A stretch of DNA of 55,252 nt from a virus, in IMG/VR virus record IMGVR_UViG_3300037258_000366, positions 1 to 55,252 of that record; one strand, given 5' to 3'. Every line of letters starts with the position of its first letter. Position 1 is the stretch's first letter. Below are positions 16,828 through 28,010 of the stretch, piece by piece. The translations under genes were made by a program, and so were the position numbers. The notes beneath the pieces were generated by a model. That model was not told the origin of the DNA, did no database searches, and saw only the letters and a list, made by a program, of their open reading frames with translations.

Positions 16828-16901
16828 GTAGACCGAGGGAATTTTGAAATCCCGACTTCTGCTTTGTAGGAGCAGCGCTCTGCCTCTGAGCTACCGATCT
16901 A
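16828..16901 (-). tRNA. tRNA-Val(TAC), atypical
   Basis: Acceptor TAGATCG/CGGTCTA, D arm GCTC/GAGC, anticodon stem CTGCT/AGCAG and a GGGA/TCCC T stem around TTCAAAA. The anticodon loop CCTACAA gives TAC, but position 33 is C instead of the near-universal T, so the identity is provisional. Its first three bases are the stop codon of the LAGLIDADG gene upstream. Confidence 0.65.
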
Positions 16902-17240
16902 TAGTGGCAAATATAGCCTGCCAGAGATGTTAAGCAAATTTGACACGTTTTCTTTTTTGACGATTAAAAGATCCTCTACAGAAGACAGAAAGAATCTTGC
17001 TTGTCTGTATGCAAAGACAAGATAGTGATTTATGCCATGATCTGCTACTTGTGGTTTAGCATAAATTTTTCCAAATCCGTAGAGTTCCTGTATCCAGACT
17101 AGCGGCTTAGTGTCGTTCTGATATATTTTAGCCGACAGTCTAGGATATCTTATTCCATTAGACGCTTTGACGTTGCTTAGATATGCACTTCCTTCACCAT
17201 CAAAAAATCCTGCTATATATGCAAGTTCTGTGTCGTTCAT
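16899..17240 (-). CDS. LAGLIDADG homing endonuclease (free-standing)
   Basis: 113 residues, a single-motif member: YIAGFFDGEGSAY at residues 8-20 is the LAGLIDADG helix with the catalytic acidic residue, followed by the alpha/beta region (SAKIYQNDTKPLVWIQELYGFG). Single-motif enzymes act as homodimers and cut long DNA sites, spreading their own gene. It lies between tRNA-Val and tRNA-Glu at the 3' end of the array and has a weak ribosome site. No intron is evident, so it is probably an intergenic homing gene. Confidence 0.85.
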   Translation of the reverse strand: MNDTELAYIAGFFDGEGSAYLSNVKASNGIRYPRLSAKIYQNDTKPLVWIQELYGFGKIYAKPQVADHGINHYLVFAYRQARFFLSSVEDLLIVKKENVSNLLNISGRLYLPL

Positions 17241-20160: not shown

Positions 20161-21750
20161 CTAGTCTTCCCAGGGCCAGCGAGCCTCTCTGCCGCGCTCT
20201 ATCAGCGGAATCATGCTGAATGTCGCATCGGACAAACCGCCCAGTTCATGCCTTGTCCCGACACCCGAAGGCATCATCGACTTGGAATAACCGCCAAGAT
20301 TGAATCCGTATAGATAAGTGTTCTTAGGAACAACATTATCTACTGATCCATGCCAGTCAAAGAAAGCCTGGCCATCTGTGAAAATAACTACCCTCTTTGC
20401 ATCCGCTCCAAGAGTACGACGCACTGAAGCTACTGTCTGAGTACCGTAGCCAACTTCACCATTTCTGCTGTAGAAGTGTGCTACTGCCTTAAGGACAGAA
20501 GAACCAGTTGGTATTACATACTCAAATACACCGTCAGCGTACCCGAACAATCTCACTCTTCCCTGATTCTTCCTGGCAAGAGCTACACCGAACAATCCGG
20601 CAGCCTCATGACAAGCCAGTTTGCTCTTGTCAGAAACGCGAGACTGCATGGAACCAGAAGTATCCACATAAATATAGGTTATTCCTGGCAACTCTGGGAT
20701 ATTCTGGGTTGAGTAATCAAGCGCCTTCTCCAGAGCCTTGCCGTAGTTAAGGCTGTTCAGTTCCTTGTAGGCAGAAACAAACCTGAAAGGGAACTGTCTT
20801 GACTTAGCCACGATCTCCGGGTTGGACAGCTTCTCGCAAACAGCCTCAACTGAAGCGTCAGAAATTCCCGCCTCATCGAAGTTACGAAGGTTTCTCAGAG
20901 TAGCCATATACCCCATTGAAGGTATCATAGCTTCCCATAGATCATCCTTAGGAACTCTTGATCCTGCCAGGGAAAGAGCATCTTCCCATGTCATTCCTGC
21001 TGCCTTCAGGTTCTCTGCGTCCAGAAGAGCCTCAGGATGATTTACTGCCTTCAGGCGAAGACCTTCATTAGCAGAAATCATAGGAAGCTGATGTCCAGAG
21101 CCTTCCCAGACATTATTGAATCTCCTGGCCTGAGAGAAACTGTAAACAGCAGCCTGATTCTCACCAACTGGTGATGCATGTACCATGTTCAGTACATCAG
21201 CGAATCTCCAGCCATGAGAAGCTGTGTCATACTTCAGCAGCGAATACTCGTTGTAGAGTCTTGCACATGCATCAGAAAGACCGCGCTTAACAGGCATTGG
21301 AAGAGGCTTGCCATACTTGGAAACCCAGTAAGCAAGAAACTCTCCTGGCTCATCCGCTCTCTGGCATACAGCCCTGATAAACTTCCTGTTCCATCCTTCG
21401 GTGCCCTGCATATTATCAGTCAGTCTTGCACGTACGGCAATTGCTGCTCCTGTGATAGAAGCAGTACGTATGTTTCCTGTACCACGCAGCCAGTTAAGGA
21501 ACCCAAGCATCCACTTAGGATCTTCTCTTGCTACAGCAGTAATCAGCTTCTCCCAGCGCACTTCTCTCTGGCTTGCTGACTCGTAGAAAGTCTGCTCACC
21601 GAAGAAATAGTTCACGCCCAGAAGGAATAGCTCGGACTTAGTCTCGCGGTCAAAAGCAATGCCACCCTCACAAGTGACTGAGCTTCCTGCTATTGACTTA
21701 ACTGGCGAGCGTCCTGCTGGTACTGTCCCTGGAGTGTTTAGCTTAGACAT
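20161..21750 (-). CDS. rsr: Ro60-like TROVE-domain RNA-binding protein
   Basis: 529 residues from the ATG at 21750 (AAGGAG 11 bases upstream; a GTG 9 bases earlier is too close to it). Residues about 20-350 form the TROVE HEAT-repeat ring (for example WEKLITAVAREDPKWMLGFL, then NWLRGTGNIRTASITGAAIA). A vWA domain follows with a complete MIDAS motif DTSGS at 363-367 and a later TDGQAFFD. Ro60 orthologs bind Y RNA on the outer ring and the 3' ends of misfolded RNA in the central hole; in bacteria they can tether PNPase and assist rRNA maturation and stress survival. The upstream leader carries a series of Y-like RNAs (see 21779-22713), strongly supporting this function. The gene lies at the end of the transcript starting at 22.9 kb. 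Confidence 0.93.
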   Translation of the reverse strand: MSKLNTPGTVPAGRSPVKSIAGSSVTCEGGIAFDRETKSELFLLGVNYFFGEQTFYESASQREVRWEKLITAVAREDPKWMLGFLNWLRGTGNIRTASITGAAIAVRARLTDNMQGTEGWNRKFIRAVCQRADEPGEFLAYWVSKYGKPLPMPVKRGLSDACARLYNEYSLLKYDTASHGWRFADVLNMVHASPVGENQAAVYSFSQARRFNNVWEGSGHQLPMISANEGLRLKAVNHPEALLDAENLKAAGMTWEDALSLAGSRVPKDDLWEAMIPSMGYMATLRNLRNFDEAGISDASVEAVCEKLSNPEIVAKSRQFPFRFVSAYKELNSLNYGKALEKALDYSTQNIPELPGITYIYVDTSGSMQSRVSDKSKLACHEAAGLFGVALARKNQGRVRLFGYADGVFEYVIPTGSSVLKAVAHFYSRNGEVGYGTQTVASVRRTLGADAKRVVIFTDGQAFFDWHGSVDNVVPKNTYLYGFNLGGYSKSMMPSGVGTRHELGGLSDATFSMIPLIERGREARWPWED

Positions 21751-21778
21751 ATTATTCACATCTCCTTACATAGAAAAA

Positions 21779-21870
21779 CCGCCTGAGGATAAGTCGTAAG
21801 TCAGTGTTTTTATCTGAACTGTTATTTAATATAACTATTAGAAGTAACTGACTAACCTCGCATCAGGCGG
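21779..21870 (-). ncRNA. Y-RNA-like element E0 in the Ro leader
   Basis: 92 nt. Ends CCGCCTGA and TCAGGCGG pair perfectly and the 3' end is followed by TTTTT. It carries the family 5' signature GTCAGTTACTTC and 3' signature CTTATCCTC just inside the stem. No tRNA-like arms are evident; the middle is AU-rich (TAATAGTTATATTAAATAAC). It ends 29 bases before the Ro start codon, so it may work as a terminator or as an autoregulatory Ro-binding leader. Confidence 0.65.
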
Positions 21871-21882
21871 CGGTTAAAAATC

Positions 21883-21975
21883 ACCAGAGAACGAGGTGAG
21901 GACGGTTGGGGCCTTCTCGGACCCCTGATTGTGTTTCTTGGCGAGAAGAAGTATCCGTCACTCTTCACAACTGGT
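21883..21975 (-). ncRNA. Y-RNA-like element E1 with a possible pseudoknot
   Basis: 93 nt. Ends ACCAG/CTGGT pair (extended by AAAA/TTTT outside). 5' signature TGTGAAGAGTGACGGATACTTC (shared, split here as TGTGAAGAG and CGGATACTTC); 3' signature CGTTCTCTGG. Inside, TTCTCG pairs with CGAGAA while GGGG in its loop can pair with downstream CCCC, an H-type pseudoknot. No T or D arm is seen. Confidence 0.6.
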
Positions 21976-21994
21976 TTTAAGTATTAAGTTTTAC

Positions 21995-22134
21995 GATGCT
22001 AGAGAATAATTCGGAAGCAGAAATTTTAGCGCTCTGCCGTTGAGCTACATCCCGAAGAAGCCGGGATGATAGGAGTCGAACCTATAACCTCTCGTTCCAT
22101 AGACGAAGTAACTGATTCCTGCACATCTAGCATC
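21995..22134 (-). ncRNA. Y-RNA-like element E2 with full circularly permuted tRNA module
   Basis: 140 nt. The 9-base ends GATGCTAGA/TCTAGCATC pair perfectly; 5' signature TGTGCAGGAATCAGTTACTTC (shared part TGTGCAG and CAGTTACTTC), 3' signature CCGAATTATTCTC. Between them, in order: an anticodon arm TTCGT-CTATGGA-ACGAG, variable AGGTT, T arm ATAGG-TTCGACT-CCTAT, acceptor 3' strand CATCCCG, loop GCTTCTT, acceptor 5' strand CGGGATG, TA, and D arm GCTC-AACGGCA-GAGC. That is a tRNA opened at position 26 and closed at the acceptor. YrlA-type bacterial Y RNAs are known to mimic tRNA in this manner. Confidence 0.82.
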
Positions 22135-22145
22135 TTAAGTTTTTA

Positions 22146-22222
22146 AGGGCGCACTAAACCTTAGTGCTATACCGTCCGTTCCCAGGCAGCTATCAGGACT
22201 TGAACCTGAAATCTCCCTCGCT
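22146..22222 (-). ncRNA. Additional permuted tRNA-like module (unresolved)
   Basis: A good T arm (TCAGG-TTCAAGT-CCTGA) is followed by TAGCTGCC, a 7-base loop, GGACGGTA, TA and a D-arm-like hairpin GCAC-TAAGGTTTA-GTGC. The two 8-mers pair only with two single-base bulges. The order T arm, acceptor, D arm again is permuted. No conventional tRNA can be drawn. The Y 5' signature is missing, so it may be part of E3 or a degraded copy. Confidence 0.45.
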
Positions 22223-22225
22223 TGT

Positions 22226-22360
22226 GTACCAGAGAATCGTTTTGATCGCGGAGTTTGTATTCATAACCTCCGGGTTTTGAGCCCGGCGCTCTATTGTTGA
22301 GCTATAATCACTATTTTTGGTGTAATTAATGAAGTAACCGTGATCATTCACATCTAGTAC
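22226..22360 (-). ncRNA. Y-RNA-like element E3 with tRNA-like arms
   Basis: 135 nt. Ends GTACTAGA/TCTGGTAC pair with one G-U; 5' signature TGTGAATGATCACGGTTACTTC (shared part CGGTTACTTC), 3' signature CGATTCTC. Inside, TAATTAC pairs with GTGATTA across a loop that begins ACCA; then come TA, a D arm GCTC-AACAATA-GAGC, and an anticodon-type arm CCGGG-CTCAAAA-CCCGG (anticodon CAA). A canonical T arm is not visible. It cannot be folded as a linear tRNA because the 3' acceptor strand is upstream of the 5' one. Confidence 0.65.
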
Positions 22361-22363
22361 TAG

Positions 22364-22434
22364 AGGCACTTACTGGATTTGAACCAGCGTAAACGGTTTT
22401 GCAGACCGTCACCTTGCCACTCGGTCAAAGCGCC
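22364..22434 (-). tRNA. tRNA-Cys(GCA)
   Basis: Acceptor GGCGCTT/AAGTGCC, anticodon stem ACGGT/ACCGT with loop CTGCAAA, T arm CTGG-TTCAAAT-CCAG. It sits between Y-like elements E3 and E4, only 3 and 6 bases from them. Confidence 0.93.
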
Positions 22435-22440
22435 ATATTT

Positions 22441-22547
22441 GTACTTGAGAATAAGATGAACTCCGGAATAGTGTGCCTTTACAGCATCTATTTCTAGATG
22501 CCTTGGAATCGAACCAAGAAGTAACCGTTGTTCTTCACATCAAGTAC
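22441..22547 (-). ncRNA. Y-RNA-like element E4 with GAAA-capped acceptor
   Basis: 107 nt. Ends GTACTTGA/TCAAGTAC pair perfectly; 5' signature TGTGAAGAACAACGGTTACTTC (shared part CGGTTACTTC), 3' signature CTTATTCTC. The core is a minimal tRNA mimic in permuted order: T arm CTTGG-TTCGATT-CCAAG, then GCATCTA-GAAA-TAGATGC, a 7-bp acceptor stem closed by a GNRA tetraloop, then a short D-like arm TGT-AAAGGC-ACA. No anticodon arm. This is exactly the design expected for a YrlA-like Y RNA. Confidence 0.85.
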
Positions 22548-22550
22548 TAG

Positions 22551-22627
22551 TAGCGGTGGCCGGATTTGAACCGAGCGATCTCTTGCTTATGAGACAAGCG
22601 AGGACAACCGAACTCCTCTACACCGCA
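22551..22627 (-). tRNA. tRNA-fMet(CAT), initiator
   Basis: Acceptor TGCGGTG/CACCGCT leaves T1-T72 unpaired, the hallmark of an initiator. D arm GAGG/CCTC, anticodon stem CTTGT/GCAAG with loop CTCATAA, T arm CTCGG-TTCAAAT-CCGGC. The three G-C pairs usual in initiator anticodon stems are absent. No elongator tRNA-Met was found. Confidence 0.85.
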
Positions 22628-22637
22628 CCGAAAGGAT

Positions 22638-22713
22638 AGAGAGCTAGAGAATAATTCGGGAACGGTGTCTATTCGCTGTAAGAAGTATCCGTACCCTGCA
22701 CAACTAGCACTCT
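22638..22713 (-). ncRNA. Short Y-RNA-like element E5
   Basis: 76 nt. Ends AGAGTGCTAG/CTAGCTCTCT pair over 10 positions with one T-T mismatch; 5' signature TGTGCAGGGTACGGATACTTC (shared part CGGATACTTC), 3' signature CCGAATTATTCTC, identical to E2. The loop (about 25 nt) has no tRNA-like arms, so this is the minimal form of the family. It is the first of the series to be transcribed. Confidence 0.7.
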
Positions 22714-22747
22714 TTTTAAGGAGGAAAAATGATGCGCTTCCCTGATG

Positions 22748-22822
22748 TACCGCCTGCGGGAATCGAACCCGCGACAACCAGATTGAAAGTCTGGGCACCA
22801 ATACCATCATAGTAAAGGCGGC
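22748..22822 (-). tRNA. tRNA-Glu(TTC)
   Basis: Acceptor GCCGCCT/AGGCGGT, anticodon stem CCAGA/TCTGG with loop CTTTCAA, T arm GCGGG-TTCGATT-CCCGC. It opens the Ro/Y-RNA transcript. Confidence 0.92.
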
Positions 22823-22825
22823 ATG

Positions 22826-22879
22826 TTGCCGATGAGATTGGAGCAGACTGTGCATGCATATCGATTCCCTCACCGGCAA
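22826..22879 (-). ncRNA. 5' leader hairpin of the Ro/Y-RNA/tRNA operon
   Basis: TTGCCGGTGAG at 22879 pairs with CTCATCGGCAA at 22826 over 11 positions (one G-U). The 5' strand begins about 6 bases after the -10 box, so the transcript should start with this stem. Confidence 0.55.
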
Positions 22880-22884
22880 GTACT

Positions 22885-22913
22885 ACTGTACCACAAGGCC
22901 GACTCTGTGTCAA
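22885..22913 (-). promoter_or_regulatory. Promoter TTGACA-17-TACAGT for the Ro/Y-RNA operon
   Basis: Perfect -35, 17-base spacer, TACAGT -10. It drives leader stem, tRNA-Glu, E5, tRNA-fMet, E4, tRNA-Cys, E3, E2, E1, E0 and the Ro gene; no other promoter is visible in between. Confidence 0.88.
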
Positions 22914-22935: not shown

Positions 22936-23946
22936 CTAGCCCAGAACCAGAAGACGTGTGCCTTTTATAAGCTTGCGGTTAATACTAGTTGACTGCACGA
23001 AAATAGTGTAGTCTCTGTAGTCTTCTGGCTTAACATCAACCTTCTCATCAGGGAGACCGAGCAACTGCCTGGCATTTCCTGTGTATACTGTCCCAGTTGA
23101 GTTAACCATGATGGCTAGCTGCTTCTGCGGCTGAATTGTTTCCTTCTTCATTAGCTGATAATAGCCAGTTCCTACCTTGTAAGGCATTCCTAGCCTGTCT
23201 GTGAAGAAATCATCAATCCTTCCGTCTGCCATAACGTTCTGAAGCGAGTAAAGATAATTCGGCAGGGGTGTAAGACTGCCTATAATCTCTGAAACAGACA
23301 CTTTGCTGAGCTTGAACAGGCTTCTGGTGCCTCTTATACCCTTAGTTCTGTTGACCATGAAGGTTTCAGAGGTTCTTCTGATGGTTTCTCCTACTTCAGC
23401 GAGACCATCAGTAGCAGAAGTGTTCCATACTGCTATGTTTTCTGCGGGAAAACCGAACTTTTTGGCCTCATGAACCCCAATTTGGTCAGGAACAAAGCCT
23501 GCAAGGGTCCAGTGATCAGGCAAACCCGCAATTTCAGCCGCTAGCTTGCCTGGTTTGGCCCTGCTATCGTTTTCTTTGCCGTCCGTGAGCACATAAACGA
23601 GAAAGGAATGCTCCCCATACTTCTCTGGAGTCATCTTCAGGTCCGAAATAGCCAGTAAGGTAGCGTCTATGAGCGCTGTAGTGCCGTATGCTTTGTACAA
23701 TCCGGCAATGCTTGGCATTCTCAGAACGTCTTTGTCGTAAATCAGGCACTGGATATTGTCCGGGTAGTCAAATGTGTATACTGTTATCCGTGTTTCCTGA
23801 TCTAGCTCCTTAGATCTCTGTGCTAAGTACTTAATCTGATTGTCCGCCACCTTTACAACGTCATCGGTGCGGTAATACATGCTTCCTGAGCCGTCAAGAA
23901 CTAATACAATGTGATTAATGTAGTTCGGGATTGCCGTGCTTGTCAT
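22936..23946 (-). CDS. vWA-domain protein
   Basis: 336 residues. A von Willebrand A domain occupies about residues 10-200: LVLDGSGSM (MIDAS DxSxS at about 17-21), GTTALIDATL (the Thr of MIDAS motif 2) and YVLTDGKEND (motif 3 Asp). The C-terminal 130 residues are unassigned, with a possible second fold. vWA proteins bind divalent metal and partner proteins. It lies just upstream of the Ro operon promoter, giving two vWA proteins side by side, though transcribed separately. It overlaps the next small membrane gene by 4 bases, suggesting a membrane-linked complex. Function unknown. Confidence 0.85.
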   Translation of the reverse strand: MTSTAIPNYINHIVLVLDGSGSMYYRTDDVVKVADNQIKYLAQRSKELDQETRITVYTFDYPDNIQCLIYDKDVLRMPSIAGLYKAYGTTALIDATLLAISDLKMTPEKYGEHSFLVYVLTDGKENDSRAKPGKLAAEIAGLPDHWTLAGFVPDQIGVHEAKKFGFPAENIAVWNTSATDGLAEVGETIRRTSETFMVNRTKGIRGTRSLFKLSKVSVSEIIGSLTPLPNYLYSLQNVMADGRIDDFFTDRLGMPYKVGTGYYQLMKKETIQPQKQLAIMVNSTGTVYTGNARQLLGLPDEKVDVKPEDYRDYTIFVQSTSINRKLIKGTRLLVLG

Positions 23947-27497: not shown

Positions 27498-28010
27498 TCA
27501 GTATTCTACCATAGTAGCGAAATGCTGTCTAGCTATCTCTATGTGTTCTGGCTGGAGTCCATTATTTGGATGGACCTTGATGTGCTTCACGATTTTTCTT
27601 CCTTTCGGGCCTAACCAGTAGTCTATTCCTGGTTCATCATCAAACCAGACCGATCCTGTGACTCCCCATTGCTTACAATGGTCTATAACTCCCCTGGATT
27701 TCACTTCAGACACTGATTGTTCGCGTGTGTAAGGCTCAAAATGCACTACAGGAAGCTTTGGGAGACCAATTTTGGCGCCAATCTCTGCGTCTGCATCATC
27801 TTGCCATGTCGTTGCCCATGCCAAATTGGCTCCAGTTGAGGCAGATAGCCCTAAAAGCCACTTTGCATGTTCTTTATTGAGTGTCAGAGAGTAAAATATT
27901 CCATCGTACTCAGATTTACTCGATTTTCCCTTAGCCGGAAAGTAATCCGGCCCTGGATTGGAACCTAAAGCGTTGAGTACGCCGTCTACATCAATAAATA
28001 TGTATCTCAT
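27498..28010 (-). CDS. HAD-family phosphatase of the RNA-repair-associated type
   Basis: 170 residues. Motif I IFIDVDGVLN has nucleophile Asp7 and acid Asp9. WATTWQDDA (about residue 66) fits the segment of the 'HAD in Swiss-army-knife RNA repair' group, and WFDDEPGIDYW (about 124) supplies the acidic metal ligands of motif IV. In that group related domains remove phosphates during RNA end repair; free-standing phage members are common but uncharacterised. Lying within a tRNA array near a Ro gene makes an RNA-end role attractive. AGGAGGA precedes the ATG. Confidence 0.75.
   Translation of the reverse strand: MRYIFIDVDGVLNALGSNPGPDYFPAKGKSSKSEYDGIFYSLTLNKEHAKWLLGLSASTGANLAWATTWQDDADAEIGAKIGLPKLPVVHFEPYTREQSVSEVKSRGVIDHCKQWGVTGSVWFDDEPGIDYWLGPKGRKIVKHIKVHPNNGLQPEHIEIARQHFATMVEY

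Follow-up and report, generated by a model that had tools for sequence, protein, structure and literature searches.

The IMG/VR record IMGVR_UViG_3300037258_000366, a viral sequence of 55,252 bases analysed here over its whole length (the window), encodes a Ro60 protein preceded by six short related elements, E0 to E5, and thereby raises the question of whether these elements are Y RNAs and, if so, what a phage would do with six of them and a single Ro. The first part has a firm answer: E0-E5 are almost certainly genuine Y RNAs, six in number, that precede a single phage Ro60 (TROVE/von Willebrand factor A, vWA) gene. For the second part, the reading that we favour, at a probability of roughly one half, is that one Ro ring is served by six alternative Y adaptors presenting tRNA-like surfaces, in a tRNA-rich phage that also carries a candidate RNA-repair phosphatase.

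The elements lie on the minus strand in the order promoter-like site, tRNA-Glu, E5, tRNA-Met, E4, tRNA-Cys, E3, E2, E1, E0 and Ro gene, and share a conserved internal signature on both arms: GRTGYGNAG..CRGWTACTTC on the 5' side, and on the 3' side a motif of the TTATTCTC/TTGATCTC type. Scored out of 19 on both strands of the window, the 5' signature (GRTGYGNAG-N3..7-CRGWTACTTC) reaches 18-19 at all six elements and at most 16 elsewhere; 40 dinucleotide shuffles of the window contained no such site. The first-pass annotation of this DNA had described the 5' signature of E0 as reduced, which is incorrect: E0 scores 18-19/19, and only its 3' motif is a variant, TTATCCTC. The ends of all six elements pair with themselves (own-partner pairing sum 42), and when the 3' ends were re-assigned among the elements, only 2 of 720 arrangements did as well, the true one included. 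Two covariance models, R1 and R2, were built from relatives only, without any window sequence; the underlying alignments held 44 minimal and 39 tRNA-bearing Y RNAs. R1 detects E5 (E-value 6.6e-8; 43.7 bits), E0 (1.5e-5), E4 (7.7e-5) and E1 (2.3e-4); R2 detects E2 (3.7e-24; 98 bits), E4 (6.9e-8) and, at full length, E3 (1.6e-3). Neither model finds a seventh Y element in the window, the remaining R2 matches being pieces of ordinary tRNAs. RNAfold z-scores are strongly negative for E0 (-5.1), E3 (-4.65) and E4 (-4.2) and lower than random for E2 (-2.3); for E5 (-0.9) and E1 (-1.6) folding alone gives no support, so their assignment as Y RNAs rests on comparative evidence. Rfam at its gathering score finds none of the six. 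Signature, pairing and relatives-only models thus agree with the earlier proposal that E0-E5 share a Ro-binding end, differ in their modules and adjoin a single Ro gene.

Several elements abut tRNA genes in the window, as they might if the signatures were ordinary tRNA leader or trailer sequence, or chance. The shuffles without a single site speak against chance, the same signatures adjoin Ro in loci without neighbouring tRNAs, and covariation refutes the idea altogether, so that its probability is close to nil and we regard it as ruled out. To avoid circularity, the 3' end of each Y RNA in relatives was located by its sequence motif with pairing ignored. In 136 distinct cases the five inner positions of the outer stem pair in 96-100%, against 44-99% with swapped partners, and C-G, G-C, A-U and U-A pairs are all present. 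Covariation over the whole structure amounts to 0.59 in the 44 minimal Y RNAs (0.16 when shuffled) and 0.51 in the 39 tRNA-bearing ones (0.14 when shuffled), and to about 0.1 when slid. Covariation in relatives, to which the first-pass annotation had looked for a check, is therefore present both in the outer stem and across the whole structure.

The same comparisons bear on how the elements multiplied. The 3' Ro-binding signature differs by 1.51 on average within a locus and by 2.85 between loci (permuted minimum 2.62), whereas stem sequences differ nearly equally within (3.20) and between loci (3.45). A shared 3' signature combined with divergent stems fits co-evolution with one local Ro; recent duplication would not yield this pattern. 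Neutral duplication, in which Y RNAs multiply and acquire tRNA arms by recombination within tRNA clusters with no separate role for each copy, draws some support from the reduced E4 and from E3, which together with a nearby remnant (22185-22215) resembles partial recombination. It is nonetheless distinctly improbable: stems within an array are nearly as divergent as those of different phages while pairing and signatures are kept, the repertoire is structured, and it recurs in unrelated phages.

The protein that these RNAs accompany (529 amino acids; 20161..21750, minus strand, ATG at 21750, stop at 20161) is assigned to Ro60/Rsr by Pfam, PHROG, Ro sequences of the PDB and AlphaFold/Foldseek. 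The TROVE domain is recognized by PF05731 (3.8e-19) and PHROG 850 (7e-40), and the PDB sequence search agrees. Its AlphaFold model (predicted local distance difference test, pLDDT, 85.7; predicted template modelling score, pTM, 0.84) combines a ring of HEAT repeats with a vWA fold, and the best Foldseek matches are Ro structures: Xenopus Ro (1yvp; TM-score 0.77), Deinococcus radiodurans Rsr (2nvo; 0.62) and the Ro60 of Thermus phage phiLo. Beside the phiLo Ro60 gene neither R1 nor R2 found a Y RNA, and a literature search found no paper on the phiLo structure. The metal-ion-dependent adhesion site (MIDAS) is intact, as had been noted earlier: the DTSGS motif is kept, and D362, S364, S366, T436 and D458 (numbering without Met) are invariant across 20 sequences. 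Many relatives (L009, L013, L039, L051) have a GC-rich hairpin just upstream of the Ro start that pairs a purine-rich GGAG stretch, for example GGCTCCTCC...GGAGAGGAGCC TTTT followed by ATG, which suggests translational or terminator-type control of Ro in those phages.

Relatives of the window Ro were found in 92 phage records, 19 viral contigs and 7 actinobacterial contigs, and the Y signature occurs upstream of Ro, often repeatedly, in most of the viral-contig and actinophage loci. The collection made by pattern scans of viral contigs and a two-part scanner comprised 354 candidate Y RNAs. Once loci with a Y RNA in common had been merged, 118 independent arrays remained, with one Y RNA in 21, two in 40, three in 30, four in 17 and five or more in 10; because the loci were partly collected by the signature itself, these sizes describe signature-bearing loci and are no census of Ro phages. 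Among cultured phages, the models and scanner assign five Y RNAs to Alone3, about six to Atuin, four each to BRock, GiJojo and Neville, and three each to VanLee and Quantum. A six-member family in one phage, for which the first-pass annotation knew of no parallel, is thus high but not unique, arrays of 2-7 beside Ro being usual in actinophages. In the 104 loci with both components, upstream positions account for 284 Y RNAs and downstream ones for 23, with none on the opposite strand, and the last Y RNA ends a median of 50 nucleotides (nt) from Ro. The composition of the arrays is regular, too: of 97 independent arrays, 67 hold exactly one minimal Y RNA (41 on average and at most 59 in permutations), and 78 hold a minimal Y RNA together with a T-arm-bearing one (56 on average and at most 68 in permutations).

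About one third of the Y RNAs are minimal (class I), about one third carry a permuted module in the order T arm, acceptor, D arm (class II, the YrlA arrangement), and the rest bear a T arm only or other hairpins. The first-pass annotation had correctly observed that the modules differ; it missed that they include permuted tRNAs, often with an anticodon loop. In E2 and about 100 relatives, the module is a circularly permuted tRNA. The distance from the UUC of UACUUC to the T arm is mostly 20-22 nt, about that of tRNA positions 27-48. Class II modules with exactly 22 nt, unselected for pairing, have U33 in 31 of 36, a purine at 37 in 36 of 36 and A38 in 34 of 36; the five anticodon-stem pairs form in 83-89% of class II modules with this spacing; and perfect hairpins of 5 base pairs (bp) and a 7-nt loop that start at UUC number 46, against 3 expected. 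Spacing, loop statistics and hairpin excess indicate that in many class II modules the tRNA is complete, its opening point lying between the D and anticodon arms. A weaker form of the anticodon-like pattern is seen in minimal Y RNAs, of which 41 of 109 have a 7-nt apical loop, with U33 in 34 of those 41. A further permutation (class III) runs acceptor 3' strand, N-CCA, linker, acceptor 5' strand, D arm, anticodon arm, T arm, and in two of its members (L125 and L293) all four arms appear in predicted folds. A first scan for class III (TACTTC..CCA..TAGCTCA) was too loose and returned mostly chance matches; two tighter scans were then used, and since they required CCA, the presence of NCCA in every case is partly due to selection.

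This homology to tRNA could mean that the modules are genes for permuted tRNAs, from which the Ro stem would be removed as an insert during maturation to functional tRNAs. ARAGORN calls a tRNA in 73 of 100 un-permuted class II modules, and NCCA is retained at the acceptor end in 11 of 100. The calls carry little weight, as 61 of 100 are still made on average when the anticodon segment is shuffled (ordinary isotype: 41 against 65); they were therefore set aside as strong proof of tRNA identity, and the loop statistics are relied on instead. Moreover, short loops lacking CCA close most acceptor ends, some tRNA parts are missing from E3 and E4, and the Ro signature is conserved. Maturation into functional tRNAs is accordingly very improbable.

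The six elements, all on the minus strand, illustrate the range of modules. E5 (22639..22712; R1, 5' signature 18/19) is a minimal Y RNA whose apical hairpin, TTC-TTACAGC-GAA, has a 7-nt anticodon-like loop. E4 (22439..22549; R1, R2, fold z as above) is a compact class II Y RNA with a T arm (CTTGG-TTCGATT-CCAAG) and an acceptor-like hairpin (GCATCTA-GAAA-TAGATGC), a reduced D region and no anticodon arm. E3 (22224..22362; full-length R2 match) is a class III Y RNA and shares its order with seven to eight further members of that class: its acceptor reads TAATTAC-A-CCA-AAAATA-GTGATTA, with 7 bp, and is followed by a D arm and an anticodon arm (loop CTCAAAA), the T arm being lost. Just downstream of it lies the T-arm/acceptor-3' remnant (22185..22215). 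The remnant and part of E3 together score as a tRNA with a 56-nt insertion (Rfam tRNA, 22185-22311, 40.4 bits); a real tRNA with an insertion was rejected, as the D loop has no GG and the acceptor, which pairs perfectly with the upstream ACCA strand, pairs only imperfectly with the one downstream. E2 (21994..22135) is the class II Y RNA with the highest R2 score, and Rfam YrlA matches it at 29.8 bits (gathering 69). Its permuted order is a putative anticodon arm (TTCGT-CTATGGA-ACGAG), T arm, acceptor and D arm, and ARAGORN reads the un-permuted sequence as a 72-nt tRNA-His(atg), with the tolerance of such calls to a shuffled anticodon segment described above.

E1 (21879..21979; R1 2.3e-4) consists of two small hairpins without a tRNA arm; similar two-hairpin modules are found at L021 4581 and L019 5821. 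E0 (21777..21872; R1 1.5e-5, fold z -5.1) has an 8-bp GC-rich outer stem, followed by TTTTT immediately before the Ro ribosome-binding site (within 21762-21778). A role of E0 as a Ro terminator or attenuator was considered and rejected as a family trait, because a T run follows the Ro-proximal Y RNA in only 1 of 104 loci. A recurring non-tRNA module, GCCAGGGCGCAAG...GGCCAGC...GCTGGCA or CTGGCA...CACC..GGGTGG, occurs in Y RNAs of three phages (L006 5683, L013 5716, L016 5688) and is possibly a different partner-binding module.

The favoured reading connects these observations as follows. The Ro gene, downstream of the six Y RNAs, is probably cotranscribed with them, and each Y RNA would dock on Ro through its outer stem and conserved internal signature, as Ro orthologs suggest; several may be loaded simultaneously on one Ro. 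The particles would then present tRNA-like surfaces (the anticodon-arm-like hairpin of E5, the permuted tRNA of E2 with its putative anticodon arm, the T-arm/acceptor fragment of E4, and the acceptor, D and anticodon arms of E3) along with the non-tRNA hairpins of E1 and E0. As interchangeable adaptors, the Y RNAs could recruit to Ro host or phage proteins that recognize tRNA, candidates being modification enzymes, PNPase-like nucleases and tRNA-damaging or tRNA-repairing enzymes, so that structured or damaged RNA, above all tRNA, may be handled to the advantage of the phage. This reading is favoured because bacterial Y RNAs, in published descriptions, both tether Rsr to PNPase and act as mimics of tRNA that DusA and TruB modify, and because a nuclease-inhibitor role has been proposed for YrlA.

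Several points weigh against it. Handling of tRNA does not account for E1 and E0, which lack any tRNA feature; only 44 of 100 class II modules form a perfect anticodon arm; and the predicted minimum-energy fold of E2 replaces the anticodon arm with an overlapping pairing, for which reason that arm is assigned from the family. RNA-repair genes are not adjacent to Ro in the window and are found in only part of the relatives. The whole is drawn from sequence and models.

In a phage version of the RYPER machine, the Y RNAs would connect Ro with PNPase, or with a comparable nuclease of the host, and control how structured RNA (host rRNA or damaged tRNA, for example) is degraded; having several of them would merely tune the dose or the choice of nuclease. 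It is unlikely, though still one of the two strongest competitors: RYPER, in Deinococcus, is the sole bacterial Ro/Y function described as biochemically worked out, and the window protein has the Ro fold and belongs to the family, but kept anticodon loops, distinct permutations and a repertoire of one minimal Y RNA plus tRNA mimics are left unexplained. An anti-defence role is about equally unlikely. Here anticodon-bearing Y RNAs, held by Ro and unchargeable since the acceptor end is closed, would bait anticodon nucleases or tRNA-targeting toxins. Real anticodon loops with many different anticodons, the 30 phage tRNA genes with the candidate RNA-repair phosphatase, a competitive-inhibitor role proposed for the tRNA-like domain of YrlA (PMC7790460) and phage tRNAs that evade tRNA-targeting defences, as described in PMC10264068, all argue for it. 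Class III loops, however, are often scrambled (a GGAA tetraloop in L293), neither E4 nor the Rfam YrlA consensus has an anticodon loop, the stems of minimal Y RNAs are weak, and an anticodon nuclease did not cut Salmonella YrlA (PMC7790460). The decoy, RYPER-like and adaptor readings are not fully exclusive of each other.

The anticodon loops show a further regularity. Among 32 distinct canonical class II anticodon loops (L008-L140 and window 21994-22135), the doublet at positions 36-37 is UA in 19, GG in 11, UG in 1 and CA in 1, and the mimics are thereby almost wholly restricted to anticodons for ANN and CNN codons; of 357 ordinary tRNAs of the same loci, 39% have A36 or C36. Loops with U36A37 and G36G37 are the sites of t6A37 and m1G37. 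We tentatively suggest that actinophage Ro particles might be displays of anticodon stem-loops docked on one Ro, each a bait or handle for enzymes recognizing the anticodon loop; in its full form, which we consider possible but doubtful, class II would be tRNAs opened at about 26/27, class III tRNAs opened near 67/68 in the acceptor 3' strand, and minimal Y RNAs an anticodon-like hairpin only, with a bias to U36A37 and G36G37.

The surroundings of the array are rich in tRNA genes: ARAGORN finds 30 in the window, all on one strand. The three interleaved with the Y RNAs, on the minus strand, are genuine by both ARAGORN and Rfam, as the first reading had it: tRNA-Glu(ttc) at 22747..22822 (Rfam 45.3 bits), an initiator-like tRNA-Met(cat) at 22550..22627, which matches phage tRNA-Met genes, and tRNA-Cys(gca) at 22363..22434. 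A DNA search with the region gave only tRNA-sized matches in named phages. The predicted sigma-70-like promoter of the tRNA/Y/Ro unit (22885..22913, minus strand) is a consensus match only, TTGACA-17-TACAGT, 10/12, with TG preceding the second hexamer; sites of such quality number 6 in the region against 3.7 expected by chance and are thus not rare. Directly upstream of it, at 22936-23946, is the gene of a second vWA-like protein (PHROG 26613, 1.4e-107; Pfam VWA, 1.5e-4). The candidate RNA-repair enzyme, a HAD-family phosphatase of the Swiss Army Knife type (27498..28010, minus strand; Pfam PF18143 HAD_SAK_2, 1.9e-10), sits within the same tRNA cluster as the Y/Ro unit. Besides the window, 9 of 30 other Ro phage records carry HAD_SAK_2; RNA ligase is present in 6 of 31 and RtcB in 2 of 31. 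Counted in Ro phages only, these figures serve as context; no RtcB was found in the window. At the end of the tRNA region, next to tRNA-Val, lies a LAGLIDADG endonuclease-like gene (16899-17240).

Annotated phage tRNAs overlap Y RNAs identified here by R2 or signature, namely Ser-gct of Alone3 (L020 4771-4844), Arg-tct of VanLee (L022 4698-4769), Arg-cct of GiJojo (L024 4727-4801), Pro-tgg of Frankenweenie (L027 5742-5832) and Cys of JustBecause (L029 4805-4875); because of these overlaps, some GenBank phage tRNAs are probably Y RNAs, which affects studies that count phage tRNAs. Of 198 genomes sampled from one actinobacterial class, 24 contain class II Y RNAs, which are therefore not confined to phages. 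For bacterial and phage Ro/Y particles, structured sets of Y RNAs made from permuted tRNAs that can retain real anticodon loops give a direct hypothesis, tRNA-like surfaces on one ring protein, and some of the phages concerned are in culture with laboratory hosts.

Parts of this picture are known. Phage Y RNAs have been reported (Chen 2014, as cited in PMC12282133); jumbo-phage TROVE proteins have been grouped with RNA repair (PMC7824862); and YrlA is known from its structure to be a circular permutation of tRNA (PMC11472068). A literature search, beyond whose reach the primary Y RNA papers lay, found no description of the regular multi-Y actinophage array, of an anticodon arm in the permuted module or of the class III permutation, and the novelty of these three features is provisional.

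YrlA of bacteria and mycobacteriophages (RF02553; structure 6CU1) shares the Ro-binding outer stem and the permuted T arm-acceptor-D arm domain, which is complete in E2, partial in E4 and lacking in E0, E1, E3 and E5. E2 aligns to the tRNA-like core of RF02553 with an E-value of 0.0013, but it (29.8 bits) and a class II relative (21.8) fall far below the cut-off of 69 bits, and the other elements give no match. In the Rfam consensus, Ro stem and T arm are separated by about 4 nt and there is no anticodon arm, whereas in class II the distance is 20-22 nt and often holds a canonical anticodon arm. The Y RNA of Deinococcus radiodurans (RF01053), part of RYPER, resembles the window elements in its modular apical part and Rsr partner; the full-length match of E3 to it is weak (23.2 against 80 bits), and the tethered nuclease belongs to the Deinococcus system as described. 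The Salmonella rsr-yrlBA-rtcBA RNA-repair operon likewise joins Ro, more than one Y RNA and RNA-repair functions, but has two Y RNAs rather than six, and its RtcB has no counterpart in the window. Circularly permuted tRNA genes (Cyanidioschyzon, Thermofilum; PMC3978253) also place the 3' half before the 5' half, with a join at the acceptor end and sometimes an encoded CCA; they have a splicing motif at the opening point, where the window type has a Ro-binding Y stem, and maturation of the latter to tRNA is improbable. The Ro loci of actinophages (Streptomyces phages Alone3, BRock and GiJojo; Arthrobacter phage Atuin; Gordonia phages VanLee and Neville) have Ro proteins that are 39-43% identical to that of the window, and their 3-6 Y RNAs, unannotated or annotated as tRNAs, lie mostly just upstream of Ro.

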